64,000 nucleotides of DNA from Ischnura elegans (Eukaryota > Arthropoda > Insecta > Odonata > Coenagrionidae). Both the position numbers and the translations under genes were made by a program. Where the stretch lies: positions 81,488,866 to 81,552,865 of the forward strand of contig NC_060252.1 of assembly GCF_921293095.1 (NCBI RefSeq), given 5' to 3'. Numbering within the stretch: position 1 is the first letter of the stretch; each line of letters opens with the position of its first letter. Of the stretch, positions 2,491 through 55,872 are shown piece after piece. Under the pieces are notes generated by a model. That model had not been told where the DNA came from. It ran no database searches and saw only the letters and a list, made by a program, of their open reading frames with translations.

Positions 2491-3629
2491 CAGTAGACTC
2501 TCATTATTACGAAGTTCATGGGACCGAAAAAATGGAGGTTTATAATAACGAAGTTCGTATGAAAGTTTCCTTTAGGATTCATCGAAAAAAAATAGTTTGC
2601 CAAAATTTCTCGTCTCTTCAAACTCCCATACTTGTAGTCATACTGCGAAATAGTTTCACAGTAAAGTGTATAACATACACAATTAAATTACATGCAAATA
2701 TAAGAAAAACAAGCACATTGGTTTCATTTTCTAGTGCAGCATAACACAATCGAGGGTTGATATCTTCCCGAATACAGTAAGTGCTCTATATACAAACATG
2801 CATTCCTTACGACCTTGCTCGTACGTTGATAAACCTATGCAAGGCATCAAGGAGTGCTGTTATCCTGCAGAATGCAACACTGCATCACAATCGTGTGCTA
2901 ACTCACAATTGTGACGAACTGATCTAGCTGGGCGTGCAATGCAACCAGAGCCAAATAAAAACAATAACTGTCCACGGGCAAAATGCTGGACAGTTCCTGA
3001 CATCACGCCGGATTCAATGATACTTTGTTCAGATTATGCCCAAAGTGCGAGTTCCTCTACGCCACACTATGTCGCATAGGCCAACTCAAAAGGAGCCAAA
3101 TCAGAAATTTTGGGCACGCTTGAATTTTTGAATGTTCGTATCTCAGAAAGTTCGTAAATCAAATGTGCGTAGGAAGAGGACTAACTGTACGTCCACTTTA
3201 TGAGTGGTAATGAGTTGGTCACCATGATTCCACAGGAATGAAGCTTATTATATGATGTTGCATAGATACTGTAGTATCTCCTGCTGAGAAAGAACTATAA
3301 TTGGTGCTCTTGGGCACACTTCACAAGGAGAATTTAAACATAGCACAATGATTATGACATAGTGTACTGTATAAAAACGCCACTGGTGTGTTATAAAATG
3401 CTGTTATTTACTGTACAAACACCATAGCTTATCTGTAGAACTTCATGTTAGAGTTCACTTTTTGACCCCCGAGACCGGATCTTAGGTTCATAATTTTGTA
3501 ATAACTAAAATTTTGCATTAACTTTTCTTATACTGTAGGTTGGTTAGGCCTTTTCGTCAGGACCAACGATTTATTTCGTAAAAACGAGAACTTCGTAATG
3601 AGGTTGTTCATATTAATGAGAGTCTATTG
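2491..3629 (+). mobile_element. pogo/Tigger-like DNA element, family A, copy 1
   Basis: The left end CAGTAGACTCTCATTATTAC follows TA at 2489-2490. The right end is its inverse, AATGAGAGTCTATTG at 3615-3629. Subterminal repeats of the phrase AAC(G)AAGTTCGTA occur at both ends. The interior shares GGGTTGATATCTTCCCGAAT (near 2754) and other phrases with the copy at 34949. No transposase frame survives. The CAGT end plus TA target is typical of the pogo branch of Tc1/mariner. The right-hand TA is mutated (CA). Confidence 0.8.
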
Positions 3630-20494: not shown

Positions 20495-20499
20495 TATTA

Positions 20500-22472: not shown

Positions 22473-22474
22473 TA

Positions 22475-29670: not shown

Positions 29671-30054
29671 TACACTCAATTTTTCAGTTCGCTTACGATT
29701 AGAATAACACCCTGATCTCAGACCAATTGAATAACTTCAATATAATACAAATATCTTGGGGTCTAGGTAACAGGACTCAAACTGTAGGTGGAGATGAAAG
29801 AGATAGCCGATTCTAATGTGACTAAGTCAATCGAATAAGTTGCAGTGGGCATGTCCTATTGTAAACTGCTCCAAACATCTTCACTTTCCAAACTTCCAAC
29901 TGTTCAGGTTTTCCTCATAACCACCCGCTAGTAGAATTAATATACCTGTCTACCAGCCCCCAAAGTGCTTGAAAAGGATGGCAGTACTTATTTTAACCCC
30001 AAAATTTACAACACAATAAGAACCTATGACATCAAAGAGGTATGATTAGCTTAC

Positions 30055-33947: not shown

Positions 33948-34163
33948 TTGGTCCTCATTCCAGCTTTCACCTCAACAATTTTATCAGAGCTGGACACAAC
34001 TCTGATGGCCACCTCACCAGCACCAGCCTCCTTCTTCTTGAGGAAATTATTTACCCTATTCTCAATATACAACCCTAATTTTGTCGTCGGTAGCCTCTTT
34101 GCAGTGAATTTGTTATCTTTCCTTTTCACCATTTTCTTCTTCAGGCAATTATCACAAACAAAC
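33948..34163 (-). CDS. nej: CBP exon (visible 7): end of PHD, start of HAT
   Basis: A 216-nt exon: GFVCDNCLKKKMVKRKDNKF, TAKRLPTTKLGLYIENRVNN, then EVAIRVVSSSDKIVEVKAGM and RTK. The CDNC pair closes the PHD finger. KFTAKRLxTTxLGxxxExRVN opens the HAT domain. The acceptor is CTTTATAG and the donor GTGAGTA. Confidence 0.97.
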
Positions 34164-34638
34164 CTATAAAGATCATAAGTGTGAAAAGAAATACCATAAT
34201 CACAATAATAATATATATAAAATACATTAGAACTTGCTTAGTGCGTTTCTGAAGGGACCACAAAAAATGAACCTACTAACCAGGAAAATGTGCTAATGAG
34301 GAAAGTAAATAATAGCAGTTGGGGTAATTGCAATCTGTGGAAAAGTTGTCATAATTACCGGTAGTTCTGGTAGGATCGCCTTCCTGAACTCTTTTCACAA
34401 TTAAAATCAAGAAAATGAGCACTACGTTGGAAAACAATACCATGAGAATAAAAATCACAATGTTTCATAAATTTCCCTAATAATTCGCTTCTCAAATGAA
34501 ACCAAATCGATTGTTATATCGATTAATAACACACAAGATTATTAGTTTACAACATCATTACAAGAGGATTTTTATATTACACAATTGAAATTTTTAAAAA
34601 TGTCCAATGTCGTCTGCTTTCCATTTCTCGTGCCGATA

Positions 34639-34946
34639 TTAAGTATTTTTTACGCTAAGCTTCGCATCGAGATCCAGAGCATCGTCTGCTTCCACAACAG
34701 TAGTCAAGTAGTGGCGCACATTCTCTATAGCCTCGACTGCTTTAGATGAAGTGGGAATTGGATAAGACTCATTTCCCTCCTCAGCATCATCTTCATCACT
34801 TCCATATTCGTTTTCTTTCAACTACTGTTCGTGCATTTCATCGATTGACATGATTTGGCAAACAGTGAGATCATCATCACACTCGCAATACTTGTTGAAA
34901 TTCAGCTCTCAAGCAATTTGATGCCACTCTTCTAGGAGAAAAGGAG
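34639..34946 (-). pseudogene. pogo/Tigger transposase C-terminal remnant (family B)
   Basis: Minus-strand reading (with one stop near 34822): LLEEWHQIA, FNKYCECDDDLTVCQIMSID, then NEYGSDEDDAEEGNESYPIP, SSKAVEAIENVRHYLTTVVE and ADDALDLDAKLSVK. The acidic stretch followed by an xxAxxxIExxRxYL helix is the usual C-terminus of Tigger-type transposases. The second copy at 49688-49760 preserves YLTTAAGADDALDLHAKLSL, which supports real coding ancestry. The family A insertion cuts it on the upstream side. Confidence 0.6.
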
Positions 34947-34948
34947 TA

Positions 34949-36103
34949 CAGTAGACTCTCGTTATTACGAAGTTCACAGGACCGAAAAACCAGAGGTTTG
35001 TAATAACAAAGTTCGTATAAACGTTTCTTTTAGGAATCATCGAAAAAAAACAATACATAATAAACGCATTTAAATTAGGCGAAAATATATAAAAATAGGA
35101 AAATGCGTTTCAGTTTCTCGACAGAAGAATGACGCAATCTAGGGTTGATATCTTCCCGAATACAATCAGTCCGATATACGAACTAGATGTGTCCCAAGAT
35201 CTTGTTCCTAAGTTAATAAACCTACAGTCCGTCTGCCGAGAGTTGTCCAATGATAGGAAGAATGGTCAGGGCATGGGGCAAAGTTGCCAGGTAATAAAGG
35301 GAAACGAATACAAATGGTCCCGTGAGGAAAGGAGCCGGAAGGGACGACGAGCGTGAAGGACCCAGAGGAAGAATCACTTGGTTTGGTGATTCGAAGAAAG
35401 AGCTTGTTTGGGTGGATCAGGCTTATTTCAGAGCTCCTGGTGCATTTGACGTTGTATGACTAGGCGAGGGTGTGATAGGTGCGTTTGGGGGACAGCGATT
35501 GGCTGTAAACCGTGCTGGCTCAGGGTTATCTGCCCCTCCTACTGTGCCGTCATCGGACAAATCTCGGCGGCCGGACTGTATGCAAGGAATCGAGAAATGA
35601 GGTTATCCTGCATAATGCTGCATTACACGTCTGCGCTAACTCTCGAAATTTGACAATTTTGAATGCTCGTACTTCTGAAAATTCGTAAATAGAATGTGCG
35701 TAAGAAGACTATACGTCCAATTTACGAGGGGTTATGAGTGTGTCACCATGAATCCACAGGAATGAAGCTTACTATATGATGTAGCATATAGACTGAATTA
35801 AGAACCATAACTGACACTCTTGAGCACAGTACCCGAGAAGAACTCAAACGTGGCACGATTATTAAAACTTATCGTAGTAAATTTCCACCTAAATGCCGTT
35901 GCTTATGTGTGGAACTACATAATAAAGTTCATTTTGTAACAGCTGGGACGGGGACTGAGATTCGTAATTACGTAAAAACGAAAATTTCGTAATAACGTTT
36001 CTTTTACTATAGCTTGTATAGGCCTTTTCGTCGGGACCAACAATTTGCTTTGTAATAACGAGAACTTCGTAATAACGTTGTTTGTATTCACAAGAGTCTA
36101 CTG
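34949..36103 (+). mobile_element. pogo/Tigger-like family A, copy 2, nested inside family B
   Basis: CAGTAGACTCTCGTTATTAC at the left and CACAAGAGTCTACTG at the right, with TA at 34947-34948 and 36104-36105. It has the same subterminal words (AACAAAGTTCGTATAAACG, GGTTGATATCTTCCCGAAT) as copy 1. It lies inside the family B element at 34225-36654. Confidence 0.88.
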
Positions 36104-36946
36104 TAATTTCTGCTTCTCCTATTATGTGATCTGCTATTTCAATTAACTGCCCTCGCTATGATAACTCATTCAATAGCAAAAACTGCCCACTCGCAAAATT
36201 TTTGCAGTGTGGTACTCCAAAGGCAACAGAAGGTGAGGAGCTTGGGGTGGGGAAAATTGGCGCTTCTCATTGGCTGCAGTTTTGCATAGACATTCCCGAA
36301 AAATGACTGCAATTTATCATTCATCATGCCATCAGAATTGAGAAATGCATTTGGATAAATCACGGTCGTAGAAATAGAGATGTGGAATGAATGTAAGAAT
36401 GTTAATGGCTGATAATAATAGATAAAATCATTAAATTCAGAGGTTTACAACCCTTAAGAAGATATTGGAGAACGAATTGCGGGTTCCGTCACGACAAGCA
36501 ATTGAGTGTACTAACCAGGAAAGTGCAACTTTTTCAAACTTACTAACCAAATACCTTTACTTGTATTTTGTTCGAATGGTACCGGGACCGAGATAAATCG
36601 CTGTACTAAGGGGGAAAACATACTAAGGAGGAACGTACTAAACAAGTTCCACTGTACTAATAAATATTCTAATGATGACACAATGTAAACACTGAAAATT
36701 ATGATCCATAACAAAATTTAAAAAAAGTCTTTTGTAATAAGTTTTCCCAAATGTAGCAGGTCATTTAATTAAGGAAATGGTGACCACTTTTAAACAAATT
36801 TAAAATAAAACAAATATTCAAACCATTAAGTCAGACTTAGGCCTATAACATTACAACTTTGAAAACTGAATGTAGAGGAGAATGTGCATCAATATTTGCA
36901 CATAGGGAATTAAGCAATACACTGAATCCAATTATAAATAACTCAC

Positions 36947-37081
36947 CCCTGAGGCCAGATGTTATCTAAATGAAGAACACAAATCTGATGAAGCTTCCTT
37001 CCACAATCTTGGCATTCAACAAAAGGCTCTAACTCCAGGTTATCGTTCTTCAATTCAACAAACTGCTCCTTTTTAATAGCC
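36947..37081 (-). CDS. nej: CBP exon (visible 6): PHD finger
   Basis: A 135-nt exon: AIKKEQFVELKNDNLELEPF, then VECQDCGRKLHQICVLHLDN and IWPQG. The CxxC and HxxC zinc ligands of the PHD finger are present. Human CBP has PFVDCKECGRKMHQICVLH. The acceptor is ATTTCAG and the donor GTGAGT. Confidence 0.96.
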
Positions 37082-38475
37082 CTGAAATTATAAAATACAT
37101 TAAGTCACCACTGAGAGCAAATAGAATTTAATTTTCCTAACCACACATACTATCCTAGGACTGATGGCACATGAAGCATTTCTCCTGCACAAGCTAAATA
37201 AAGGCCAAAAAATGTTTTTCATGATCCTCAAACTGACATTAAACACATATATTACACACTTATTTCAGCTCTTTATAAAAATATTATAACAACTAATAAA
37301 TGAACTTCACTCAAATATTTTTCAAGTATCTTAGTCACTTAATAACAACACTTTCTGGGTTTTATAAGACTCGAGTATACATGCAAAACTAAAGAGATGA
37401 GTGGGAAATCTCTCACTCAGATAAATATAAATGGCAAACCAAATTTGCCTGCAGAATCACAACATAAAACTTGGCTTCACTATATCATAAATAAAACAGG
37501 TAAGAGAGGATGAACAATTTTTCTCGTGCAAATTCTTTCCCTGTTTTGTAAGTAACCAGACCACTGTAATAAAAAACCAGACATTGTAACGTCAATATCA
37601 CATATTCCAAGTTATGGCAAGTGGAGTGCTAATGGAAATTATAAGGATGGACAGATCCAGGATTTTTTTTGCATCCCAACCCGGATTGGATCCTTGATTT
37701 CAGGTGTTGGATCTTCTGATATTTTTGGATCCAAATGCTTTTTTTAATTGCCTGCTATAAAATGAAGTCATTATTTAAGTTTCTTCAGGGTACATACAAT
37801 GCTATTTTGATACTAATACACATTTTATTATTTTTTCTTCAAATTTTCCTCACACTTGTTGCCCCTCATTTTGTCATTTTCCCATAGCATACTGACGTGT
37901 GTTTCAGTCACAGATGCTTCAGTAGTGGAGGATTTTGCACTTCATCATGATATTTTCACGCCACAGGGCACGCACATGGTATATAATGACTTCTTCCTAT
38001 CCAAATTAAAATGTTTCCACACTATGGAAAACATTTTCATAAGTGTAGTTTATCATTAAATTAAATTGCAATTGCACTATCGGCAACACAATTAAGAGCG
38101 ATATAGGTGTCTACTGCGGCGAACTTGAACATAAAAAGACGACCGCTCAGCGAGGGGTTGGGCAGCAGAAGCACGTAAAGGAGAAGTGGATGGGAAGGAA
38201 CATGCTCCTTCCATCTTTCAAGCAACGAGGGAGCCAGGGGACCACACATCTGATCTTGCAACTTTGTGATGTCATAGGCTTCAAGGCGACCGGGTGAGCT
38301 ATGCGATATATGCAGTTTGCGTTTCCAGTCTGTCTCGTCTTGTGTGAATATGTTCATGCAACGCTTGTTTATTTGATAATTGTGCTGTTTGGACTATTTT
38401 GAATATTGGTATAGCCTTATTGTAACTAGAAAGCTTTGTGTCAATCAATTAGAGCTTAAAAAACATGAATGCTGT
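37082..38475. other. CBP intron upstream part
   Basis: Intronic DNA before the Penelope-like fragment. The end (38061-38357) is GC-richer and holds a 98-codon minus-strand frame without recognisable motifs. It may be part of the same retroelement insertion. Otherwise AT-rich with no features. Confidence 0.45.
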
Positions 38476-38950
38476 CAGAGTGTGAGTGCGAGCGAAGCCT
38501 ACATTGGGGAAACTGGATGCACCATTGAAACTAGGCTGAAGGAGCATAAGCGGCACCTAAGGTTGGGACAACCGGAGAAATGAGCCATAGCTGAACACAG
38601 CATACAACACGACCACGTCATCCAGTTTGATGATGCCGAGATCCTGACGCGTTCCACCAAATATTGGGATAGAGTCGTAAAGGAGGCCATAGAAATTCGA
38701 TTGGACCATAAAAACTTCAACCGTGACGCAGGCTATGCCATCAGCAACACCTGGAAACCCGTTGTCAGCTCTAAAAAGCCAAAGGATCAACGGATTGGCT
38801 GCCAAGAGACCAGTCCTCAACCAATCACGTGACACCTGACCTCCAAGCAGGTTATATAAGGGAATCAAACCCTCAGTCCGACATTCAACTGCCCTGATGA
38901 CGATGCTTGAGTCGAGCCTCGAAACGTCGGCCATGGAAAACCTCAACCGG
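38476..38950 (+). mobile_element. Penelope-like element 3' fragment with GIY-YIG endonuclease
   Basis: The reading frame gives SEAYIGETGCTIETRLKEHK, RHLRLGQPEK, a TGA (38581-38583) where serine is expected, then AIAEHSIQHDHVIQFDDAE, VVKEAIEIRLDHKNFNRDAG and WKPVVSS. The YIG...R..EH pattern is the GIY-YIG nuclease of Penelope-like elements. The single stop is the main lesion in this part. A candidate hammerhead ribozyme follows the coding end. The 5' part of the element is missing. Confidence 0.78.
38891..38932 (+). ncRNA. Candidate hammerhead ribozyme of the Penelope-like element
   Basis: GCC, then CTGATGA at 38894-38900, a stem II hairpin in 38901-38920 (GCTTG/CGAGC core), GAAAC at 38921-38925 and GTC at 38926-38928, then GGC that can pair with the initial GCC as stem I. 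The order CUGAUGA-stem-GAAA-NUH is the hammerhead core, and Penelope-like elements are known to carry such motifs. Stem III would be minimal. The base of stem II is imperfect (C-C next to the core, or CGA/UCG in another register), so activity is uncertain. Confidence 0.42.
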
Positions 38951-39384
38951 TGGAAAACCCGAGAAGAATTCCTTCAACTTGTTCGCCGGGAAAAACTTTG
39001 ATCCTATTTACATTATGATATTTTGCAACAACTTTACTCCCAACGAATGAATTAAGTTCAAACAAGTTTGCATGCCACCTATTTAGGTAGCTGTTCCTTT
39101 TGGCATTGGTTCTGGTCCCAGTTCCAACTCAAGAACCAGAGGAAGCCAGCCATGCTGACTAAAAAATTCAGGGAACAGTGTCCCTAAATGGATAAACAAA
39201 CAACTAACTTAGAATAATTTCATAAGTGATCTGCTTTGTATTTTTCCATCATTCTGTAGTTACCAAAATATGTCCAAAACGGAAAATTTCCACAACATTA
39301 ACAAATAATTTAAATAGGATGCATTTTACTTCATTGCTAACAGATAGAAATTATAAAATATAATGAAAGATGAATGTTACTTAC

Positions 39385-39465
39385 GCCTGTGTTTGAGTAG
39401 GATCCTCACCAAGGGTAACCGAGTCCCCAGGAATATCATTAAAACACTTCTGGCAGAATGTGTAT
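39385..39465 (-). CDS. nej: CBP exon (visible 5): RING region
   Basis: An 81-nt exon completing a split arginine and reading YTFCQKCFNDIPGDSVTLGE, DPTQTQ plus a split alanine. Human: YHFCEKCFTEIQGENVTLGDDPSQPQ. The CxxC pair belongs to the discontinuous RING. The acceptor is GTCGAATAG and the donor GTAAGT. Introns of 2.3 kb (downstream) and 16.2 kb (upstream) flank this small exon. Confidence 0.95.
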
Positions 39466-42400
39466 CTATTCGACATTATACCATACTGCTTCAAGCTGAA
39501 AAATAAAAGAATTTAATCAGAAAACTACTAAGCATTAAATGTTTTAGCATTGGTGAATATCTCCATAAAAATGCAAAATGCCATAAAAAATGAACTTTAG
39601 TCTCTGAACATTAACTATGATCAAATTTCTACTTTTTTTCTCTACCACTTCATTATTTTCCATCCAAAATAAAAAATAACACATTTCATAACATTGAATT
39701 AAGATCTGTGGTACTGGGGTAGTTTAGTACTGAATATCCAGTTTTCTACAAACATATAGTTAAACATACAATGAATTTCAAAGCAACAGACAACTCAAAG
39801 GTCCTTAAATGGTATTGGTCTTAGGCAACTTAATTTCTATAGTAAATATTACACCTGCAACTAACAACAACCAGTAATGTTGGCTATATGATAACTGGTC
39901 TGGCATTAAATTTTAATGTTGACATTATATTCATAAATTCAGTCTCAACGCTCCATAAATAAGTACACAGGCTTTGTCTTTCAAGGATGTTACAAGATAA
40001 AAAATTTTGATGCCATCATATTATCATGCAAATACTAACTACGTGGGTTCAACCTGGCATTTATCTTATATCATTCCTGACATTAATATTATCCTTTTGC
40101 ACACCAAAATACCATACTAGCCAGGAATCTTATGTTTTTGGCTCTAAAATGAAATCATTAAGTAGTAAATTTAACCATATGAATATCAATTCAATCTTGA
40201 CTGGTAAACGGATGAAAATATTTAGATGGTGCTGATTACCACAGTTCAAATTCAGGCAAATTCAAACGGAAAAGTCATCAGCTCAACTATTAATACATGA
40301 AATAGCGACTCACATAGAAGAAATAGCCTGATTACGCAGGTTTCTATGGAATTTTGATTTTTGACACCTTAATTTTACTTTCTAGAATTCAGAAAATTTT
40401 CTAGGGCTTAATAAAAAATTAATTATAAGATGTAACATAAATTAGCAGCAACTCAATCACAATACTCTACATCCTCACCACAGCCCTAGGGTTACAAGAG
40501 AAAAACAATCAAATGGTGATTAAGGAAAGGGCAGTAAAAACATCCTTGTGGTCATTACCACATGTAATGTTGTCCTATTGGTACATCTAAAGCTTAAGTC
40601 AAATAATCATTGATCACTATTCAAGGGTCAAAAGATCATTTGAGCTTTACTTTCCAGTGAAAGAGAAAACAATAGATATAGCCATCATTCTCCAAATCAT
40701 AAGATGATTCTTGTAATACCTAATTGAATTTATCATTTTCTGACCTATGACCTTACACAATGACAGCACATATTCATGATCTTTACTATATTTATTAAAT
40801 AGACTCGCTTAAGGTAATACCATGTCACAATACCCAAATGCCATGGAGTGGGATTTGCGATTAGTGCTCAGGAATGGAATGCAGGATTGTTGCTGACAAT
40901 AGAAAAAGGTGTTAGGGTCCTAATTATTGTTGCTGTTCCTAAAACAATGTCCAAGAGATACCACACAAGTTATTAAAGCCTATAAGACACATTGAAGCCA
41001 GGTGAGGAAACACTGATCACACAATGAGTTAAAAAGAGGTATATTCTGCCATAAGCTACCAGCAATGAATCTAAAGGAAAATGTCCTTTAATTAACAGGA
41101 AGAGCATCTATGATTGATGCGTGATCACAGTAAAACAATAGCACGGATATGTTAACAAAACATAAGACTAATTGAAAAATTCAAAAACATCCTACACATT
41201 ATTACCAAATTCAAATGACTTTCATAAGGAGGAGCTGAAAACAAGGAACACAGGCATTTTGTATGCTCGTCTTGGAAATTAGAGGCAAATCTGAAGAATA
41301 ATGTTGCAAAATAATTCATTAGTGTCAAAGTGTGGATCCAAAGCAGTGCAACAAAGCCCTGGTTACAAACACTTTTTTGGGTGCCTCCGAAAAAAATCGT
41401 AAAATAACAATTAAAACATCTCTTTGAAAGGAATCTTGAGTTTTACAAGTTGATGCTTGTCCCAACTCCCCACTAGATGCCAGCCTATTATGATTTATGC
41501 ACTTCCAAATTGACATGGAAGACATTCATTACACAACTTTTCACATTGCCTACTCCTCACAAGGTATAAATAAGAAATTGGAATTTTGCGACAAAATTCC
41601 ATTCTCTCTGAACAAACGCCAGTACTATTTCACTTCTGCAGTTATTCTAACTCAGGACCTGGTAAGCTAATTCATGACCAAAAGAAATAAAGCAGCTTTG
41701 TGAATAATTTGAATAATTGAACAAGACTGCAATACATGTCTTAGATTACAAAGGAGATATCTTGCAGATCAATCATCTTAATTTCCATTAAGTATAAAAT
41801 AATGGCCACATTAAAAACAGATCCCACGTCAATTTTATTCTGTTTAGATGCCTAAAAGATCATGAGATTAACCCCAACCATGGAGCATACCACCACCATG
41901 AGATGTTGTTGTTTAGAGTGTTGTTGAGAGTTTACAATTAAATTTAATTAGGACATTAGTACAACTGAATTGAACAAATTTTGCAGAACACGATTACATA
42001 AAAAAACAAAAACGGAATTAATCTGGGGTTATCTCATAGCTAAATCACAGGTAGTGTTAGTCGACCAGCTACGTATATATTATTTTATATAAGTAAGCCT
42101 AAGTAATGACATTGAAAGCCATATAAATAAGATGATAATTTCATGAAATTACTACTTGATCTCAGAATATTCTAACAGAAAATTTTCTTTAAATACATTA
42201 CCTATCTCAAATGAAAATTATCATGCTTATAACCCAAAGGATGTAATAAATCAGGAATCAAGTCAAAAAAAAAAAAAAACTTGAATGAGCTATTAACGAA
42301 AACTAGTTTTTTTAGTATGATATTCTCTCCTCCTCCTAAAGAAAATGTACCCAGGAAAAGGAGTGAAACTATATTCCCATATTATGAATGCAATCCTCAC

Positions 42401-43984
42401 ATAGCCATTTTGGAAGCTACAAATCAAAAGAGGAAAATAGAATGGATAGAGCAAACAATGATTTTAGATGTTTGCAAATGAAATAAGTAGCCAATTTTTT
42501 ACTACGAATGTACCATACTTTTTGTGATGCATTTCATAATGGCACTAACTTGGCGATCATATCTATACAAATTTAGATCGGCAGCAGTCAAAAATCACCG
42601 AATATCCAATCCTAGTGTTGGCATCCTCCTGTTCTCAGAACAAATGCTAGGGCAAGCGTATGGTGACATTTCTTCGCAGCTGACATTAGATAAAACTTCT
42701 GAATGACATTTTACTTGGGATAGTAGATGCTTAAGTTATCTTATTTCTTCTCACAATATACAGCAGTCCAGATAGATGCAACACCTGCAATATGGAGTTG
42801 CAATTGATAACATGACAGTCATTTTGACAGAAGTGAACTGCCCAGATAAATAAAGATTGAAAATTTAGCCCATGATGCAGCAGTAATTACGAGCCTTTTT
42901 AAATGTATAAATAAATTCTAAATAAAGAATGATTGCTGCTTCATAGCTCCAAGAATGTTAGGATACTGAGAAGTTTAAACTGAAAATAAGAACAAAAAAT
43001 AAGGGCACTAATTTCAGAATTTTGAAAAAAGCGGAAAACTGAGTATATTTGATTGTTCAAATTACAGCATCTACCAGCAACGTATTTTCTTCTGACGACT
43101 CAACCGTAAATAGATAATGAGAAATTATTCTACAATTAATTTCCAAGATTATTGAAAATGTTGGTAGATATTCTTCCAACATTTGATCAAGAGCCTTACG
43201 TAATACTAATTATGAACTCAAATGGCTTTAGGAGAATGGAATATTTTTAAGGTTGAATAAGGGTTTTATGACCTGAGAACTAATCCAATATGAACTATTT
43301 CCCACAATCTATGAGAGCATATCCATTTGCAAGAGAATATTCACAGAAAAGAGCTAATACATGTAAAAAAATTTCAGATTAAATGAATTCTATTTGGATT
43401 TCTCCCACTAACAAAGACAACTGACAGGTAATTTAAAGAGAAGTGCTCAGGCATGCATTTATGACACATTGAGAAAAAAGTTGAAAAGCCAATTCCTGGG
43501 TCATTTGTCAACAAAACATATTCGGCCCTAACATCATTCATTGGCCCATAATACTTGAAAGTAAGGTCAATTATTTGTATGAAAAGTAGTTAGCTAAGAA
43601 ATAGTTGACCCTCTAAAGGAAAAATAAAATTTTCAAAGGTGATGTAGGTAGTTCGTTAACACAATGTTTTTTAATATTGTAGTGAGTCTAGCTGCTGAGG
43701 GTAAAGTCATCCAAAGGAGCCGCTTGCCAGAGTATAAGGAAACCACCGCTAAGAATCTATCTACTACAGCACATCGAGGAGGCAACAGAAAAAGAGGTAT
43801 ATTACGTTGGTTGAGATCTAAACATGGTGCCAAATATTCAGTTAATTTTTACTTTCATGCATACACAGATTTAAGTAATGTTGCATTTCAACTATTGATC
43901 TGGAATCATTTTTTCTCGGCCTCACCTCTACACTGAACGTTTCTGAGGAGTTACGAATACCTCTCAGGAATGAATATCTTTCTG
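39466..43984. other. Large CBP intron, part 1: no recognisable element or exon
   Basis: About 4.5 kb of AT-rich intron. Short frames only, none flanked by splice sites with CBP-like sequence. A 15-nt A run at 42266 is unremarkable. Confidence 0.5.
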
Positions 43985-44550
43985 AAGGTACTGATCGCAG
44001 CCGGCCAAGGGCTCCTTACCTCGGAAACTGGGCGGGGGCCAACTCCACCCTCCGACATGGCATCAAGAGTAATTTGACTCCGCAGTCAAATATATGTTAA
44101 AAGAGGTTTTGCTAAAGAAATACCTAAACCATATCATGTGCATTTCCTAAACGATAATTATACGCTTAACAAAGAAATACGATTCAGACTTTAAATGAGA
44201 CGATATGAGGTAAGGCAATGCGGGCTTTTACTCTGGATTCCCAACTTTTTCTCATTGTGTATTTGGCACCTGGTATGGTTTACTTCACAAGCTTCCCATT
44301 ATTAAAAGACGATAGTTTTGTTTCAAAATTGCTAAGGACCAGTGAAATCAGGAATTCACTTCATAGGTAATAATTGAGGATAATGCAACAATTATTCTTT
44401 AGCAAAACCATGATGCACTGTTTTAACATACCTATAGGTATTTGATTGCGGAGTCAAGCTGCAGTCCCTGCTAAGCCGATGAGTCGGAGGGGTGGAATCA
44501 GCCCCCTTCCAGTGTCCGAGGCAAGGATCCAGTGAACGGCTGAAAGGTAA
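43985..44550. repeat. Pair of diverged ~110-bp inverted repeats
   Basis: The left arm 43985-44095 and right arm 44436-44550 are inverted, diverged copies. Shared words include TTTGA(C/T)TGCGGAGTCAA, GTCGGAGGG(G)TGGA, GCCCCC, (G/T)TCCGAGG(T/C)AAGGA and CGGCTG. A 340-bp AT-rich spacer separates them. It may be a foldback-type element or two opposite insertions of one GC-rich repeat. Confidence 0.65.
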
Positions 44551-46033
44551 AAATGCATTTTCTTTCACCATTAATGTAACCTACTGCTTTCTGTGCTACA
44601 CATGACATAAATTCACATATGCAAGTCTTCATTTTTAATGCATAAGATTCATACTCTTTACAGGGTTATCAAGAAAGCATGCAAGACATTACACATGGAA
44701 AGATTGTAAAAATCAAGAAACACAAGAATGCTCTCATGAATAAATTAATGAAAAATGCCAACACAATTTAGATAATGTGAACAGTCAAATTTGTCAAACA
44801 GAGTCATATTTGCAAATTTACCTTTGGCATTTAGTTAAGTTTATTTGAATCCTCTATGTACATTTACCTATCAAAAAGACCATTTTGTATTAAAATCATA
44901 GATTTCTATAATTCAATTGTTTTCTGAAACTAAAGGGTGAATGTAGAAAAGTATCTCTGATTTTCTTCTGATAGGCCCAGGATTGATGAAGAAATATACC
45001 ACTGAACATTTTGATTCACATAAATACTTAGAAGAACATGGGCCCTAAAAGATTTTCCCCATCAGAGAATGACAATGTATATTTTAAACAATTACGTACG
45101 ACTATGACAGGGGTTCAAGACTCACTCACCAAGATGCCATAGAATAATCACTAGAACCCCAACCCCAATCTTTCTTAGATTATGAATAACATGTCACATG
45201 CATCTATGAATGGGGAAATTTTCAATGAAAATAAAAATAAAATAGAGGAGACAAAGGGCAACGGATATTGCACAGTGCAAAAAAAACCTGAGGGCTAAGC
45301 ACCTTTTCTTCTCAAGATAAGAAGTCTTCAAAATTCCAACAAGGCAAAAAACAGCCCTTGAAGCATAATCCAAAACTTTTACGTAATAACGTAGAGGGAG
45401 TTGAGGGGTTCAACTAATGTGCTTACGTAATCCATTAATCTTCCCACAACAGGAAAAGCCCGTGGTTAAGGCAGAAGAACAAATATTTCACCCTCATAGA
45501 CTTTAACTAAGCAAAATCATTGGAAAATTAATAAAAAATTTCTCACTTTTCAATTGATCAAGAGGTGTATAATATTTATAAGGTAAAAATTTCCCCTCTA
45601 CAAAATATCTTTCTTGCCAATCTGCCTGAATCGCAAGAGAAGAAAACTTAACAACACACAACCACATTCCAAAGTTGTAAATTATGAAACTTCGTACATT
45701 AAAACGGTATGCTTTAAAGAAAGGGTGAGGAAAAATAAAAGTGAATACTAAGGATTACTTAACCCTGCGAACCAAAAAAACCATGGTATTAGAACAGGCT
45801 TTCAAAAAATCATTGAATGTTATTTTTTAGACCCAATCACCTAAATACAAGAATATTCAAAATAAACAACAGGTTTAAATGAAGAAGTTTGACAGAGGCA
45901 TTAAAAGAAGTTGTGAGAAGCAAGTTCAAATAATACTTGAATAACTGGAGGGTAATATCCCTCTATCTCTACCATAAGTTGGCACATTATTGACAGGCTT
46001 AGCATGCGAAAGATCCACAGAGAAAAAATCATT
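44551..46033. other. Large CBP intron, part 2
   Basis: AT-rich intron with no recognisable element or coding block. Confidence 0.5.
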
Positions 46034-46106
46034 CGCCTTGACCGGGATTCGAACCCGGATTCCCCGATTTTCGGTCGAGTGCTTTAGCCAGTTAAGCTAT
46101 CGAGGC
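46034..46106 (-). tRNA. tRNA-like sequence (GAA at the anticodon position), probably a SINE head or pseudogene
   Basis: A 73-nt cloverleaf on the minus strand: acceptor GCCTCGA against TCAAGGC (one C-A mismatch), D arm GCTT...AAGC, anticodon stem CTCGA/TCGGG, T arm CCGGG-TTCGAAT-CCCGG. The 7-nt anticodon loop is CCGAAAA, so position 33 is C instead of the universal T, and GAA (Phe) sits at 34-36. Immediately downstream is a non-tRNA tail, and roughly inverted TCCACAGRGAA words flank the unit. These points favour a tRNA-derived repeat over a working tRNA-Phe gene. Confidence 0.6.
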
Positions 46107-46257
46107 GTCATTCTTCCCTGTGGATATTTTCGGACACTACCGGACTACTTTAGTCCCGGTATACTTTAAACTAGGCTTAGCATAGAAGAGGACTATAATA
46201 TCACAGATATTACACCTGGCACTGCTGAGAAGGTATATTTGATGAAAACAGAAATAC

Positions 46258-47374
46258 AGTAGAACCTGGGTTACACGACCCTCAGTTATATGATACTCAG
46301 TTATACGATGACCACACTTATATGCAGATTATTTTGGTCCCGTGAATATGAACCCATGTATTTCCAACCTCGGTTATGAAACTTTTTACTTATACAACAT
46401 CGTCAGTTACAAACATATTTTTCCAGTCCAATTAAAAAAAAACCTCACTTAAACGACTTGAACTGTTCTACAAGAAGATTGCAGTACACGTGCCGAATTT
46501 AGTCACATAAGCGGGAGTACTGTGTGCTAATTATGTAGATATACCAAAAATGAATAATAAGTTTAAACAATGAGCAATGCTGTTTACTAGATATTATCTA
46601 CAATTATATTAGATGATCGTTAATGCAAAATTATATACTACGGAATATCTATCTCTAACAGAAAATATTCTAGAATTTTGCCAAGGTTATGTTTTCCGTC
46701 GCCCGAGAGAAATAACGCTCACATGACCTGTTTAAAGTCTTCCTATACCTAAATTTTGGTTTTTAAAGCCATCCAAAAAATATATTTGTATTTGTAGTAT
46801 GGAAGGAAGTTGATGGTGATTCAACACGGTGGTAAAAAACAGCATGCGTGGTCTCATTCTGCGGGCTAACCCACATCTGTGGGACAAATGGAGCCGGAAG
46901 AAAGTTGCTTCCAAGGCACACTGATCAAAACTGACGAAACTTGGATCTCAGTGGGTTTAAATGAAACATGGTTGGACCTTGAATAGCTATGAGCTTAGCC
47001 CTTCCAGGTGGCAAGCGATTATTTTTAAAAGAACAGGAGTTACTGTCAATGCCCTCGGATAATAACTCGTGTTGTCAATTGTCACATAATCATTTATGGC
47101 AAATTCAAGACATGAAAGAAAAGGCAGTTCCTTTTGACTCAGGAATGGGATAGCAAAATATTCCGTGAAGACAAATCGCGCAGTGTTGTGAGTAAATAAG
47201 ATTATTAGTCTTAATTTTCTTGCCTCCAAATGAATAAATCCATCATGGAAATAAAGCAGACCCCATTGAAAAGGATATCATGCTCCTTTACTGAAAAACC
47301 TCACATACAAAATTTCCTCACTTATGAAACTTTTTTGGTTCTCTGCTGAAAGTTTCATAAGTGAGGTTCTACTG
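46258..47374. mobile_element. pogo/Tigger-like element, family E (1.1 kb)
   Basis: The left end CAGTAGAACCTGGGTTACAC follows TA at 46256-46257. The right end, inverted, reads CAGTAGAACCTCACTTATGA. Its right TA has become TG. Subterminal words TTATACGA, TTATGAAAC and CTTATACAAC recur inside both ends. No clear transposase frame; minus-strand frames of 60-80 codons at 46732-47229 have no motif I can name. Confidence 0.78.
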
Positions 47375-47376
47375 TG

Positions 47377-48205
47377 GTTATTTTGAAACTTAAAACTACT
47401 AGACTAAATCCTCTAATTCCTTGACAACATGGGACGAATCCCATTTGACCCAAAAAGTTCCTAAATCCTAAGCACGGAAAGTAGGTAATACCCTTTATAA
47501 GTGTAAGGCCAGGACACTTAAACATGAGCTGAATTAGTGTAAAACTAAAACTGCTATAAATTAAAAGATAAATATGTAACAATCAAATTAGGATCACCAG
47601 TGTGTTGTTCAAGATAACACCATGGATGTCTTTTAATCTACTCATCAGTCTTAGTGTTGTGCCCCTAATGTAAAACTCAGCCTAAATGAATGAGTTCAGC
47701 AATTACCTAAAATGTGTTACTTTTTGGTGAACATAAAACTGAGTTGAGTCCAGATATCTTCATCCATAAAAAACACCAACTCTTTCTGCCACATAGATTT
47801 ATGAGTAACACTTTTGAACACAATTGTACATGTTGCATACATATCCGGTAGGATAAAGAGGGGTGAGATACCAGAGGGACATCTTTTTTTCTTTGATTAA
47901 TTGAGAATATTTCAATTTCTGTTGATGAATTCATTAAATTGCAGAGGTCATTGCATACTTTCACTGCTACCCTAACATGACTGCTTTTACATTCCAATTA
48001 ACATCTACTGCAGACACCGACCATTGGGATAGGATTTCTATTTCCTTAAATGATTGCTTGAAATGATTTTCCACCTTATATACTCTGATGGCTCTTTTAT
48101 TAATATTTCTAATTTTTGAGTGAATATCCTTTGGACTAGGGGATTTTTTTTCTTCACATTGTTTTTCATATCTTTCATATTTTTTAAAAAATACACGTGT
48201 AATTA
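47377..48205. other. Large CBP intron, part 3
   Basis: AT-rich intron between families E and A. Nothing recognised. Confidence 0.5.
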
Positions 48206-49032
48206 CAGTAGACTCTCGTTAATACGAACAACGTTATTAAGAAGTTCTCATTATTACAACACAAATTGTTGGTCCTGACAAAAAGGCCTATCCAATCAAT
48301 AGTAAAAGAAATGTTATTACAAAATTTTTGTTATTACGAAATTAAGAACCTCAGTCCCAGTCCCGGCGGTTACAAAATGTACTTTATTACGAAGTTCCGC
48401 AGAAAAAGCAATGGCATTTAGGTGGACATACGCAACGCTACGTTATCATAATTGATCTATGTTTAAGTTCTCTTCTTTTACTGTGCCCTAGAGCATCAAT
48501 TATGGTTCTTTCTTCAGTAGGAGATACTTCAATATGCACGCAAAAGCATACAATAAGCTTCATTCCTGTGTAATTATGGTGACCCACTCATTAATGCTTG
48601 TAAATTGGACATACTAAAGTCCTCTTCCTATGCACATTAGATTTACGAACTCTCAGAGGTTCAAACATTCAAAAATTCAAGCACGCTCAAAATTTCTAAT
48701 TTGGCACCTTTGGAGTTTGCCGATGCAACATGACGTAGCGTACAGGAACTCGCACTTAGGGCATAATCTGAACAAAGAATCATTTAATCAGGTGTGAAGT
48801 CAAGAACTGTTCAGCATTTTGCCCATTCTTTCTTCCCACAGACAGTGGACTATTTTCATTGCAAGCTAGGTCAGTTCGTCACAATTGTGCGTTAACGCAC
48901 GATTGTGAAGCAGTGCTCCATTCTGCACGATAACCACTCACCTCGATGCCTTGTAGAAGTTTACTTATGAGGAAGGTCTCAGAACGCATCTTTTTATAAA
49001 TCGAGGACTTGCGCATAATTTAATAGCATATA

Positions 49033-50335
49033 CAGTGGAACCTGTTTAGTACGTTTCTGAAGGGACCACAAAAAATGAACGTACTAACCAGGAAAACGTG
49101 CTAACGAGGAAAGTAAAAAATAGCAGTCGGGGTAATTGCAATCTGTGGAAAAGTCGTCATAATTACATCTACTATCGGTAGTTCTCGTAGGATCGCCTTC
49201 CTGAACTCTTTTCACCTTTAAAATAAAGAAAATGGGCGCTACATTGAAAAACAATACCATGTGATTAAAAAATCACAATGTTTCATAGATTTCCCGAAGA
49301 CAATTACATGAAAACGGCGTCTTTCTCCCGTGATTTATCCTATATGTATTTATAGAAAGAGGACAAGTATAGCTAAGTCATTTCTTTTTTGTCACAGCAT
49401 ACTCGGAGAATATAACAGCAACCCTGAGTATGTCAACGGGTTGTTTTTAAACATCATAAAAATGGGACAAAATTATATTAACCTTAAATTACGGCAACAG
49501 CCGTACACATTCGCGCTTCTGGAATAAAGCCATATCGATTGTTATAGCGATCGATATATCGAATAATAACACGCAAGATTATTAGATTACGAGGTAATTA
49601 CAAGAAGATTTTATATTATACAGTTGAAATTTACTTTTAAAATTTGCTTAATGTAGTCTGCTTTCGTGCCGAGATCAAGTACCTATTTTTAAGCTAAGCT
49701 TCGCGTGTAGATCCAGAGCATCGTCTGCTCCCGCAGCAGTAGTCAAATACGCACGTACCACGTAGCATTGACGACGTGCAGTACTGCTTTAGATAAAGAG
49801 GGAATTGGATAAGACTCATTTCTTCATCATGATAACTCGTGCAATAGCAACAATTGCCCACTCGTGAAATTTGTGCGCAGTGGGCCAGTGGGCACTCCAG
49901 AGGCAACAGAAGGTGAGGAGCTCGGGGTGGGGAAAATTGCGGCTTCTCATTGGCTGCAGTTTTGCATAGTCAGACATTCCTGATAAATGGCCATATTTTA
50001 TTATTAATCGCGTCATAACAATTGAAAAATGCATTTGGATAAATCACGGTCGAAGAAAGATATGTGGAATGAATGCAAGAATTTTAATGGCTAGTAATAA
50101 TAAATTAAATCATGAATTCGGAGCTTTACGACCCTTAAGAAGATACTGGAGAACGAATTGCGGGTTGCGTCACGTCTAGCAATTGAGCGTACTAACCAGG
50201 AAAGCGCAATTTTTTCAAACGTACTAACCAAATACTTTTACCTGTAATTTGTTCCGATGGTACCGGGACCGAGAGAAATCGTCGTACTAAGGAGGAAAAC
50301 GTACTAAGGAGGAACGTACTAACCAAGTTCCACTG
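49033..50335 (+). mobile_element. pogo/Tigger-like family B, copy 2, nested inside family A
   Basis: The left end CAGTGGAACCTGTTTAGTAC and right end AACCAAGTTCCACTG are bounded by TA at 49031-49032 and 50336-50337. It is 1.3 kb long. It matches copy 1 (34225-36654) along its length, including GGGACCACAAAAAATGAAC, GTGAGGAGCTCGGGGTGGGG and the transposase C-terminal remnant. The surrounding sequence is family A, the reverse of the arrangement at 34 kb. Confidence 0.88.
49688..49760 (-). pseudogene. Family B transposase C-terminal remnant, copy 2
   Basis: Minus-strand VRAYLTTAAGADDALDLHAK then LSLK, matching the remnant at 34639-34821. Upstream coding is degraded. Confidence 0.5.
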
Positions 50336-50664
50336 TATTATACACTTGACTCTGAAGATTATAAGAGCGGGAGATTGAAGAGACAAGAAATTTTGCCAAA
50401 GTATGTTTTTATTTCTTTCTATGATTCCTAAAAGAAATGTTCATACGTACTACGTTACTACAAATCTCCGGTTTTTCAGTCCTGTGAACTTCGTAATAAC
50501 GAGAGTCTACTGTGAATACATCCTCTAATTTGCATGCTACAGTTCGGATTTCTATTTAAAATCCATAAATTAATATGAAAATAAAAAAATCACTATGTAA
50601 CTAAATAAAACCAATGGGAATGAGTTGTAACAGTGATTTCAAAAATTATAAGAGAGAAAAAAAA

Positions 50665-50755
50665 ATTGCTGAGTCTGGGAGTCAAACCCAGGAGGCACAC
50701 GGTAGGAGTCACTGCACCAGTGCCATAGACTGCTCCACCAACGCCGTAGTTGAGA
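50665..50755 (-). mobile_element. tRNA-like sequence, probable SINE head
   Basis: The minus strand reads an A-box-like TTGGTGGAGCAGTC and, about 45 nt later, a B-box-like CTGGGTTTGACTCCCAG that forms a T-arm-type hairpin. Acceptor pairing is poor and no anticodon arm is convincing, so this is called a tRNA-derived repeat rather than a tRNA. Confidence 0.45.
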
Positions 50756-50789
50756 GAGAGCGATTACTGAAGGGAAGAGATGGTGCATG

Positions 50790-53001
50790 AAATCTTTACA
50801 GAGATATAATATCACTCGAACCCGGGCCTACATGGAAGTAACCCATGAAACTTTTTCTACCTTATGTACATAGTTTCAGAATATAACATCGGCATCCAGA
50901 TCCCAAACATCACTCTGGCGATGTCTCTTTGTAAGTACACACAAAATTAATCTCATTTTACGCATATCAATAGTATTTCTTGCCTCAAATCTTGTTTTTT
51001 GTTTCTATATTCGTTGTAATCCATTGCCGCACAATGGCCAAACACATTATTCGTCATGCTGACCTACGGAAGAGTTTATCATGCCTCCTTTACTGAATGA
51101 TATTAGTTAATTTAGATCATTATTAATTTTGGAGCTAGTAGAAATGAGTTTTTTTAACAATATAGTTTGAGATGTATTTTTTGCTGTCCTAGGTTATTGG
51201 GCGAATTAACTTCCACGCTAAGAGGCCAGCTTAAAGCCTTCAAGGTCACGGGGGAGAAATGGAGCAGGGACCGAAATGCATATGAATAACTCCAACACGT
51301 ATAAGGGTCCAAGAGAGATTCTCAAACACATTAGCTTCCCCTTCCAGCAGTCGTAAGCCCTCTCCGTTTCAGGAATACAGTGTGGCGGTTATTCAGCAGT
51401 AGAAAGTGATTTTCATTGAGCCATACAGAGTAAAAACCAAGTGAACAATGGCGAAAAATAGGAACACAGATAGAAAAAATAAAAAGTTATTGAGAAAAAG
51501 CATAAACCCATAAGAAAAATTGAAAAAAGCAATATGGCATGTAAGTTTAAGCTCACAGTCGACAGTCCACACTATTCTTCTGAATAGAGACGAAGTTAAA
51601 ACATCAATGACATTAGCCACACCACTGCAGCCACGCGGTCAACACGTACGCAAAGTTCTTTGCTGGATAAAAAACGGAAAGACTTCTAAGTACCTGGATT
51701 TATCATAAACACTTAAATGATGTTCCTCTATCCCAGGAAGTTATTTGTGCATAATCTGTGGCTTTATTCGAATCTATAAAAGAAGATAAGGGTGATGATT
51801 GCTCCGAGACATCAAGTGGAACCTTCAAGATTAAGGGCCCGGGTGACATAAGAATTGTTTTAAGACTAGTTTGAAAATTTGTTAGCTGCCGGCAATGCAT
51901 TGCGAACCCCTGAGCTAGTATGTTTTTTTCCTAGTTGTTAGCCCACCTGCACATAAGGAGGGAATTTTAAAAGCAAGTATGAATGTTTCTTTAATGGGAA
52001 AAAACGTCTTTGAATGCATACCTACGATCTTAAAAGATATTATAAACTATAAATGTTTTCATAAAAAAGGCTTTCTAAGGCTATTAATACGAATATATGC
52101 GGTTTATAAGAAATTCAATACTCAACAGCTATGCTACCGAGAACGCATCCCTGTCTTCCCCATGCTAAAATGGTCTCGAATTACACAATTTCGATTACTG
52201 CAAATACCCCATGGAACGCATCCCTTGTACTAAGCAAGGCATGGGTACATGTGATTGAGTTTTCCTACAATGCAGACCATTACACAGTAGCCGATAGAAG
52301 AAAGAATAATGCTGATAGAATTTCTTAAGCTATGATTGATCCACTTTAGCAATTGTATATTCCCATTTAACGTTTTTATATCTTGTTTTATATTAATGGG
52401 TTTTCTATCTTATGGTAACGAGTATGGGATAGTAATAAATTTGCACTCTCTTTCAAATTTATCTCTTCCATTCGTGGAGCCAATGAAAGTTAAGCTTTAC
52501 TAATTCTTTCTCAAACTTCTCGATCAATAGCTCAGACTTGCACGGTTACGCAAATTGAGTATTTCAAATACTCTAGAATGGTAGGGATAGATTAATAATT
52601 AAAATGTTGCTTTTATGAATATAGGACAATATTTTGATGTTTTTTAATGCAATAAATACTTCATTTAACACTCTTACTCCAAATTTTATCATTTTCCAAC
52701 CATAACATCAGTCAATAACATGCTTTCATGTGGCTTTTTTATATTCGCTTAATACGTATTCACTAAATAAGACAATTTTAGCATGCTTGTCTCATGTTAC
52801 AGGGGTATACCTGCATTTTTCCCTTTGCAGAAATGATATAAAATGTGCTTAAATATGAATGCAATGGAAAAGTCTTCATTAACTTTTTTCTTATTCAGAA
52901 CAGAAATAAAATTCGGCCTTCATTAAAAATTCCTAATGTACAAAAGAGTTTCCTAGTAATAATTTTTACAAAAATTGATAATACCAAATTAAATTTCAAT
53001 A
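50790..53001. other. Large CBP intron, part 4
   Basis: Intronic DNA without an exon or definite element. A GC-richer 180-bp patch at 51190-51370 has no recognisable content. Confidence 0.45.
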
Positions 53002-53120
53002 CAGTGGAAGCCCTGCTTAGCAAGTACAACATATTATGTGAATTGTGTTTTAGCAAGTGAAAGTTTCTGTACTGCCAGACGGCCTACACTTTACATGTAA
53101 AATAAATCGGATATAGCGAG
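53002..53120 (+). mobile_element. Single end of another pogo/Tigger-like element (family G)
   Basis: TA then CAGTGGAAGCCCTGCTTAGC, followed by subterminal words TTAGCAAGT, TTTAGCAAGTG and ATATAGCGAGG, the layout seen at the ends of the other families. A later TCTGCTTAGTGACC near 53614 may be a decayed partner, but no convincing inverted terminus was found. Confidence 0.5.
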
Positions 53121-55714
53121 GTCAAAAAGTCCCTTACACTGTGTACCCTCAATATTACGACAGATATTTCTCAAGGGCTATGCACCACTAAGCAAGCATT
53201 AACTATTATGTTTTGGATTATCTGTTCATTAAACAAAATACAAGATGGTTGTCAGATCTACAACACCTAAAGCCAGTTATATCCAAGCATTTATGTGATT
53301 TACGGCCTTGAGTATGCTCTGCGAGCTCCCATTTTGTGTTCTTCTATTGCTAGGCCCAGTTATCAGTGGGAGGGGAATGGGAGGAAGATGACAGTGGGAG
53401 AGGGAGTTAGTTCCCCCCATCCTCTTTTCATGGCTTCGCCCTTAATAGGCTGTCTTAAGTGCAGGAACTTACATTGTAGAAAAATCCCCTCCATCTTTCC
53501 CCGTGTTAGGTATGGAAGTGGAAAGAGTAACATTGTTGAACTTAGATCGACGCCCTTACATTGACTTTAAACATTTTGTAAAAGCAGAATTACTGTGCTG
53601 ATAGCAGAAATCCTCTGCTTAGTGACCAATCATAGTGAATCTTTATTATCTCTTCTTCATACTCTCCAAAATTCTGTACGAGTCTAAGTTTCACATCATT
53701 CCTGTGAAAAAATGATACAATTCCTCAGAATTCCTTAAATTTGTTTAAATGAATGGCTTAACTTAGATGCAGGTTACCCTAACGGGCTATGTACTACGTG
53801 AGCACAATTATAAAATGCTGATTCCTACACCAGATCCCTTCAATCTCTTGGCAAGGATTAAAAGTTCCTATACACAGACTCCTAGTTCAAAAATAATTTA
53901 ATGCTCCGCATTTTGCGACGCAGCATATGTGCCTTTGCTCGCCCATGCAGTGCTTTTATTGTAGGTATGTAAACCGCCCAGGGATATTTTTTGGAGGAAC
54001 TGAAGATTATGTAAATTGAGTAAAATATTTATCATCGCAATTGCTCTCCAAAAAGCTCTCAGACTACACAGGAGTGAACTCAATGCATCTGATCCTTTGG
54101 GCACAATCCAAGGCACTGCGCTGATGGGGCCTCAGCATTCAGCAGAAGAGAGCAATTGAAAAACTTCTCCCATCCCATCAACTGGATGCACCCAATCACA
54201 TGTCAACAGAGAGTTGGGCTGTGGGAAAGGGGTTGAGTTTACTCGCTTGGAGGGGCAGAGATTACTCAGTCTCAGGGGCGTAGTAGTGGTAGGTGATTTG
54301 TGCAAAAGCATCATGTCCGGACGTAAATCTTTGGACCTTAAAACCAAAATTAAAATTACAAACAAGAGCGAAAGTAGCAGGACTGATGCCGGGAGGCGGT
54401 TTGGTATCTCGTCATTTACCTAGTTCACAATATTAAAGAACAAAGATAGAATTCATGCAGCAGTGACCGAACTAGGAACAACTAGCAGCCAAAAATATTT
54501 GTGGCAAGGGGAAGATCCTCAAATGGAATCTGTACTATTCAAGTGGTTTTGTCAACAAAGGTCTGCAGGACTGCCCAAAATAATTTAATGCTGTGTGGAA
54601 AATAATTTAATGGTGTTAAAGACGAAAGCTGACTACATTGCCAATGGGAAGAAATATCTCTGCGAGAAATATCTACGACCACCGAATAATGACGTGTATC
54701 AGTGAAGTTTACGGCCAATTTTCCCAACTGACTGACGCACTGGTTAAACATTCTAAAACTCGACAAAATTGATGATATTGATGATATTGTCGGCATAATA
54801 CATTTGCAAAATTATCCAAAAACTTCCACCGCATACCAAACATATTGATTCCAACTAGTTACACTGTTTTTACAGCTTTCTTTGGCAATCAAAAAATATA
54901 AGAACGGGAATAAAATCACCAAAACTGGGGGAGTTAATATTTTACAACATTGAAAATTGTCCATTTCTTTCTAAACAATTGTTGATACTCAACTAGATTG
55001 TGCCTTATAATGACTCTTTAGCTATTTAGCTTTGTTAAACACCACAGAAACATATGAAAAACTGTAATTACGAACTATTACGAGCCTTTGGTGTGTTTAT
55101 TCAACACCTTCCGGTACAGCGAGCGCTCTGTTTATCAAGTAATTTCTGAGGGATTATGAGCACTAGTTAAACCAGGCTTCTTATGTATTGCCAACCAATG
55201 TTTCAATGTAATGAAGTAACAATTAATATGAAAATGCCTTTACAATGCTGAAACTAGGCCGACATTATTAAAACTATACGGAAATACAAAGACAAATTCA
55301 TTTGGTCTAAAGATGATTACACCAAGCTCTTTGTAAAGTTGAAGGTTTTCAAAAATCATTTAAGATTCAAGATGGATGAAATTGATGGATCATCCTACCC
55401 CAGGAGAATAAAATATTCTCAGCAACATATTTGATTAACTAGAAATCAAATTGATGCCTTTCACAGTTATAAGTTATGCACGTAACATTTGATAAGAAGG
55501 AACTGGTGGAAAAACCTCTGCCTTCTAAAAATCATAAGGGAAATATGGCAGTATTTACAACACATTCGGGCTTCATTCAAAAATCATCCCCTCATAATAT
55601 AAAATATTTAATCAGTAGATATCACATTATTCTTTGAATGAAAATTCTATAAGAAAATAATAAAAAATATACAAACTCAGAGAGATATAGGGAAGTAAAA
55701 AAACCAATCTTTAC
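53121..55714. other. Large CBP intron, part 5
   Basis: About 2.6 kb of intron upstream of the RING exons. No coding block or definite element end recognised. Confidence 0.45.
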
Positions 55715-55872
55715 CTATTTTGGTAACTATAGTACTTGGCATCTCTGGGAATAGTGCAAAGTTGTTTCCCATAACAGCATAATACTTGAGGGTTGAAGGT
55801 ATACTTTCGGCCACAACAGTAACCTAGAGTCTGCATCACTGGATCTATTTCCGTTTCAAATACTTCAGATAG
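55715..55872 (-). CDS. nej: CBP exon (visible 4): end of bromodomain and RING
   Basis: A 158-nt exon: LSEVFETEIDPVMQTLGYCC, GRKYTFNPQVLCCYGKQLCT, IPRDAKYYSYQN plus a split arginine. Human: LAEVFEQEIDPVMQSLGYCCGRKYEFSPQTLCCYGKQLCT. The cysteine ligands of the CBP RING are intact. The acceptor is TTTTTCAG and the donor GTAAAG. Confidence 0.97.

Follow-up and report, generated by a model that had tools for sequence, protein, structure and literature searches.

Reciprocally nested, TA-flanked DNA transposons of two families in introns of a CBP/p300 gene of Ischnura elegans

The ordering of transposon activity by nested insertions is an established method. TinT, as described in PMC3014933, uses thousands of element-in-element insertions to order activity, and the same text cites the TCF of Giordano et al. 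as a nested-transposon chronology. According to PMC5657132, which covers the interruption matrix of TRANScendence, mutual insertion is possible between families whose activity overlaps, and Drosophila long terminal repeat (LTR) families have interleaving activity periods. Here, we analyse a stretch of 64,000 nucleotides from Ischnura elegans (contig NC_060252.1, positions 81,488,866 to 81,552,865, forward strand; hereafter the window), in which DNA transposons of two old families, named A and B, are nested in each other in both directions within two introns of a CBP/p300 gene. All counts and comparisons given below refer to this one window and its own copies. As in TinT and TRANScendence, who interrupts whom is used to order activity, but those approaches work with genome-wide counts, whereas the present locus offers two reciprocal events and one further level.

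With regard to the elements themselves, most pogo families display TA duplications and terminal inverted repeats (TIRs) of at most 40 bp, and pogo-type transposases carry CENP-B_N/HTH_Tnp_Tc5 plus DDE_1 domains, as outlined in PMC7386202. Tigger elements are present, according to PMC8472432, in almost all bees studied outside Apis. Because Tigger is called polyphyletic in PMC7325037, the name is not applied here. The elements of the window resemble the pogo superfamily and Tigger-type ITm elements, as these are described in PMC7386202 and PMC7325037, in their TA target duplication and short TIRs.

Two reciprocal nests in introns of one gene

The window very probably records five independent cut-and-paste insertions at TA dinucleotides in two CBP/p300 introns, namely, B1, A1 and D in the first nest, and A2 and B2 in the second. 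These elements, a third family-A copy (A3) and the exons bounding the two introns are as follows:

2491..3629, plus strand: A3, third family-A copy, containing neither B2 nor D; flanks TA/CA
33948..34163, minus strand: CBP/p300 exon (PHD to HAT region); B1 lies upstream, at 61 bp from the 3' splice site of this exon
34225..36654, plus strand: B1, family-B DNA transposon, apparently non-autonomous and 1273 bp long once its insert is removed; flanks TA/TA; left end decayed
34949..36103, plus strand: A1, family-A element within B1, 799 bp without D and its TA; flanks TA/TA
35225..35578, plus strand: D, 354-bp element within A1, third nesting level; ends CAGTCCGTCTGCCGAG / CAGTCCGGCCGCCGAG; flanks TA/TA
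36947..37081, minus strand: CBP/p300 exon (PHD), bounding with the 33948..34163 exon the intron of the B1 nest
39385..39465, minus strand: CBP/p300 exon, lower bound of the intron of A2 and B2
48206..50512, minus strand: A2, family-A element opposite to A1, 1002 bp without B2; flanks TA/TG
49033..50335, plus strand: B2, family-B element within A2, in the orientation of B1 and without the B1 segment around the A1 site; flanks TA/TA
55715..55872, minus strand: CBP/p300 exon (atypical RING), upper bound of the intron of A2 and B2

Families A and B are real by alignment along their length, and not by their ends alone. After columns in stretches below 55% local identity had been dropped, B1 (A1 removed) and B2 share 86.4% identity over 1042 aligned columns, and A1 (D removed) and A2 (B2 removed) 78.1% over 711 columns. 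The third copy A3 shares 77.4% identity with A1 (782 of 797 columns kept) and 79.6% with A2 (960 of 993 columns kept). Non-CpG Kimura two-parameter (K2P) distances amount to 0.115 between B1 and B2, and to 0.20-0.24 among the A copies. The possibility that D is a segment of family A was ruled out, A3 being cleanly devoid of it and D having its own ends and TA sites; its identification as a captured coding fragment was likewise rejected, the four frames that overlap D by 129-235 bases, one of them lying fully inside, giving no Pfam match. Exact-pattern scans of viral and prokaryote sequence collections returned no other copies, a result that says little given the contents of those collections.

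The insertions themselves can be followed at sites free of insert. At the position of D in A1, A3 aligns through with exactly one intact TA (...AAACCTATGCAAGG..., the site being also given as ...ATAAACCTATGCAAGG...). At the position of B2 in A2, A3 also aligns through without insert, the target dinucleotide being CA in A3 and TA in A2. As for A1 in B1, joining B1 at one TA yields an open frame across the insertion site, from RGQLIEIADHIIGEAEI to TPFLLEEWHQIA.

The two ends of each element agree at 20-25 of the first 30 bases in A1, A2, A3, B1, B2 and D, and TA is found at seven of the eight outer flanks of A1, A2, B1 and B2, the exception being the right flank of A2 (TG). The TA/TG flanks of A2 and the TA/CA flanks of A3 are read as decay of the TA target duplication. 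A previous sequence-only reading of this DNA had reported matching ends and TA sites for all four nested elements, which is correct in general, save for this right flank of A2 and for the decayed left end of B1 (CATTAGAACTTGCTTAG), where 4 of 17 bases differ from the end quoted at that time. The right ends of B1 and B2 deviate from the quoted end at 1 and 2 of 17 bases, respectively, and the right end of A1 has one mismatch in 12. A scan of the window for 16-bp inverted ends of the CAGT type, with TA flanks, a spacing of 150-3500 bp and at most 4 mismatches, retrieved seven pairs, all with at most 2 mismatches and one of them a cross-pairing (27997 with 29670). In 100 dinucleotide shuffles, the same scan gave 0.08 pairs on average and never more than 2, none with at most 2 mismatches; in the window as a whole, inverted TA-flanked CAGT ends greatly exceed chance. 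As the scan demands intact TACAGT and ACTGTA, it picks up A1, B2, D and the elements C and E described in the last section, and skips B1, A2, A3 and F.

The host gene, identified as CBP/p300 by Pfam and PDB matches of exon stretches, lies on the minus strand of the window. Ten stretches were compared with Pfam, and nine of them match portions of CBP/p300 (Creb-binding, TAZ, ZZ, HAT, PHD, RING and bromodomain), the HAT match of the 33948-34163 exon being below cut-off; the tenth, of 28 residues, is matched solely when included in the joined exons. The joined exons match PDB chains named CREB-binding protein, p300 or histone acetyltransferase (best E value 2.2e-85), and four CBP/p300 exons splice in frame with AG/GT borders. 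The intron 34164-36946 measures 2783 bp, of which the B1 nest occupies 2430 bp, and subtraction of B1 and one TA leaves 351 bp; the intron 39466-55714 houses A2 with B2 inside. The placement of A1 in B1 and of B2 in A2, supported by ends, TA sites and family alignments, is upheld, as is the earlier view of two distinct families with true insertions both ways, all in introns of one gene; the third level, D, had been overlooked. The larger intron also contains a tRNA-Phe (GAA) at 46033-46107 on the minus strand, detected by ARAGORN and by the Rfam tRNA model (58.7 bits), which may represent a genuine tRNA gene or, alternatively, the head of a short interspersed nuclear element.

The two nests, some 12 kb from each other in the same gene, each comprise an A and a B element, and both might be products of one composite unit, duplicated and then rearranged after a single nesting event. 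This, together with an unrelated nested copy, had been named beforehand as what could overturn the reciprocal nesting, and both checks were run on the window. The copies align within each family, and orientation, insertion points and flanks speak against the composite. In the self-comparison, A1 and A2 are in opposite orientation, while B1 and B2 are in the same one; the insertion point of A1 is at 724 of 1273 in B1, and that of B2 at 827 of 1002 in A2. Nor do the two nests have related outer flanks (none of four flank pairs at E<0.01); host and guest have swapped roles in a manner not given by any simple duplication, and a third copy, A3, has neither insert. Matches in the self-comparison stop at the element borders or no more than a few bases away, except for a 17-18 bp overrun to the left of B1 and B2, and the sole match in all eight flank pairs tested is one of 15 bp between the left flanks of B1 and A3. 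A duplicated composite is, in our judgement, next to impossible.

Order of insertions and decay of the copies

On account of the nesting and of the insert-free sites in A3, the five independent insertions can be placed in order. B1 would have come first, into an intron of about 350 bp, followed by A1 into B1 and then by D into A1; separately, A2 would have entered the 39.5-55.7 kb intron, and B2 would later have landed in A2. All five appear as deleted, non-autonomous elements, each having presumably relied on a transposase supplied in trans from elsewhere, and would have undergone neutral decay in the introns after landing, the decayed copies being presumably removed along with the introns by splicing. 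Since B1 preceded A1 and A2 preceded B2, neither family's span of activity wholly precedes that of the other, and the logic by which overlapping activity periods had been proposed therefore holds: if each family had one span, the total spans of A and B would overlap.

The decay of CpG sites points in the same direction in both A/B nests, inner copies keeping more CpG than their hosts. The ratio of observed to expected CpG (CpG o/e) is 1.47 in the inner A1 and 1.26 in the inner B2, compared with 0.78 in the host B1, 0.94 in the host A2, and 0.58 in the whole window. B1 retains 25 of 45 CpG sites versus 42 of 45 for B2, and TG or CA is found in B1 where B2 has CG at 20 sites, the reverse occurring at 3 (p=0.0005). 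Within family A, 23 of 32 sites are retained in A1, 16 in A2 and 13 in A3, with a pairwise retention of 17:4 for A1 versus A3 (p=0.007) and 16:15 for A2 versus A3.

Several observations weigh against this history. The reopened B1 frame is interrupted by stops further along; moreover, B2 is deleted at the stretch that received A1 and is therefore unusable as an insert-free copy, which leaves the reopened frame as the only such indication for A1 in B1. CpG retention between A1 and A2 favours A1 (17:9) but is not significant (p=0.17), and the CpG o/e of D, which is necessarily younger than A1, is only 0.82, a value to be read with its different base composition and the lack of a second D copy for comparison. 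In a three-way comparison of the A copies (708 columns left once poorly aligned stretches had been filtered out, 14 of these columns with three different bases), the branches are about equal, with 76, 65 and 78 unique changes. Furthermore, divergence is greater in family A (0.20-0.24) than in family B (0.115), so that divergence alone fails to recover the order. Its use as a measure of age was rejected for A: A1 must postdate B1, yet the A copies are more diverged than the B copies, and they therefore probably descend from source elements that had already diverged. The relative clock proposed earlier thus remains valid as an ordinal order, but the divergence of A is unreadable as insertion age.

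What the nesting yields is confined to t(B1)>t(A1) and t(A2)>t(B2). It is an ordinal clock only, and overlapping spans are compatible with transposition that was not simultaneous. Families A and B may accordingly have been active in separate, alternating bursts with pauses between them, for example A2 and B1 early, and A1 and B2 late, which fits equally well. CpG decay, which suggests a greater age for B1 and A2 than for A1 and B2, agrees with such bursts, and the divergence among A copies is enough for different source lineages. Nothing decisive speaks against them, and they amount to a finer version of the same history in which the total spans still overlap; we would give them slightly less than an even chance. 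A brief common period of mobilisation for A and B, perhaps through a single transposase that acted on the CAGT ends of both, with many reciprocal nests of matching age across the genome, appears very unlikely.

A local hot spot might also have favoured A and B insertions in these introns over random landing. Five more TA-flanked elements or ends in the window (C, E, F, an end at 29670 and a pair at 62109-62554) would be in line with it, but the five A, B and D insertions occupy different sites in two introns, and the rough expectation from TA counts would need no hot spot if many windows were looked through; we deem a hot spot unlikely. By these counts, the joint chance that three A and two B insertions in the window include both A in B and B in A is about 0.9%, a rough, post hoc figure, uncorrected for the many possible windows and families and not a significance test.

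The five independent insertions provide, as a single case, a checkable order in one gene, with insert-free sites and a concordant decay signal, and make a good worked example from which an interruption matrix for the whole genome of this species could be started. The description of the clock as rarely seen does not stand, ordering by nested insertions being an established method and mutual insertion of overlapping families being expected; the known behaviour of such elements is unchanged, and the event is an ordinary one for a transposon-rich genome.

Superfamily membership of A, B and D

A1, B1, B2 and D have inverted ends with TA on both sides, which fits a TA-inserting cut-and-paste DNA transposon of the ITm group, and families A, B and D combine short TIRs (at most 40 bp, Type 1) with TA duplication, a combination that is not specific to pogo. 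CAGT-type ends are typical of pogo elements. The reopened B1 frame, which we take to resemble the acidic tail of pogo-type transposases, matched only CENP-B_dimeris, an acidic stretch, in Pfam, below cut-off (E=0.014, 16.3 bits versus 25.4); the trimmed tail also remained below cut-off (E=0.007, 17.3 bits versus 25.4), and no match was obtained in PDB at E<=5. Three further frames from B1 and B2 had no match, and no Pfam match was obtained for any of six frames from A1, A2 and D, which represent part of the frames of these elements and include none from A3. An intact transposase, a DDE domain or a helix-turn-helix (HTH) domain was not found in the frames scanned.

B1 and B2 appear to be deletion derivatives. 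The designation of both families as pogo-like, made in the sequence-only reading, is weakly supported for family B, where one sub-threshold profile match points to it; for A, it derives from the ends and TA sites, and A and D are no more than candidate members. In contrast to pogo, B has at most an acidic C-terminal tail left, and no coding part was detected in A or D. In their TA sites, short inverted ends and short bodies without detected transposase, A and D are also similar to Tc1/mariner-type miniature inverted-repeat transposable elements.

Other elements in the window

A further nest consists of element E (20500-22472) inside element F (20000-22548). E is 1973 bp long, with ends CAGTGGAACCCCGATT / CAGTGGAACCTCGATT and flanks TA/TA, and one of its frames, which by eye is reminiscent of the beginning of a pogo transposase, had no match in Pfam. 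F has ends CCAGGTGTTTAAAAATG / CCAGGTTTTTCAAAATA and flanks TA/TA, and harbours a frame with a weak sub-threshold match to the helix-turn-helix DUF4817 (E=0.071). A partial copy of family E at 29313-29672, inverted and 69.6% identical to 20498-20902, has one TA-flanked end at 29670. Element C (27997-28579) is a TA-flanked element of 583 bp with ends CAGTGGAACCTCGTTA / CAGTGGAACCTCGATA, the first 10 or 11 bases of which are common to the left ends of E and B2.

A long inverted repeat, 61732-62173 / 62490-62931, has arms of 442 bp with 86% identity, and a TA-flanked pair of the CAGTTTGCCCCGAAAG type (62109-62554) spans the inner part of this repeat (61732-62931). A 35-bp unit is repeated in tandem at 7283-7470 (3.9 copies, 96% matches), and this array overlaps another, of a 26-bp unit, at 7402-7470. 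Lastly, the frame 11589-11900 on the plus strand shows a weak match to a reverse transcriptase (RVT_1, E=0.0027, below cut-off) and is possibly a retroelement remnant.

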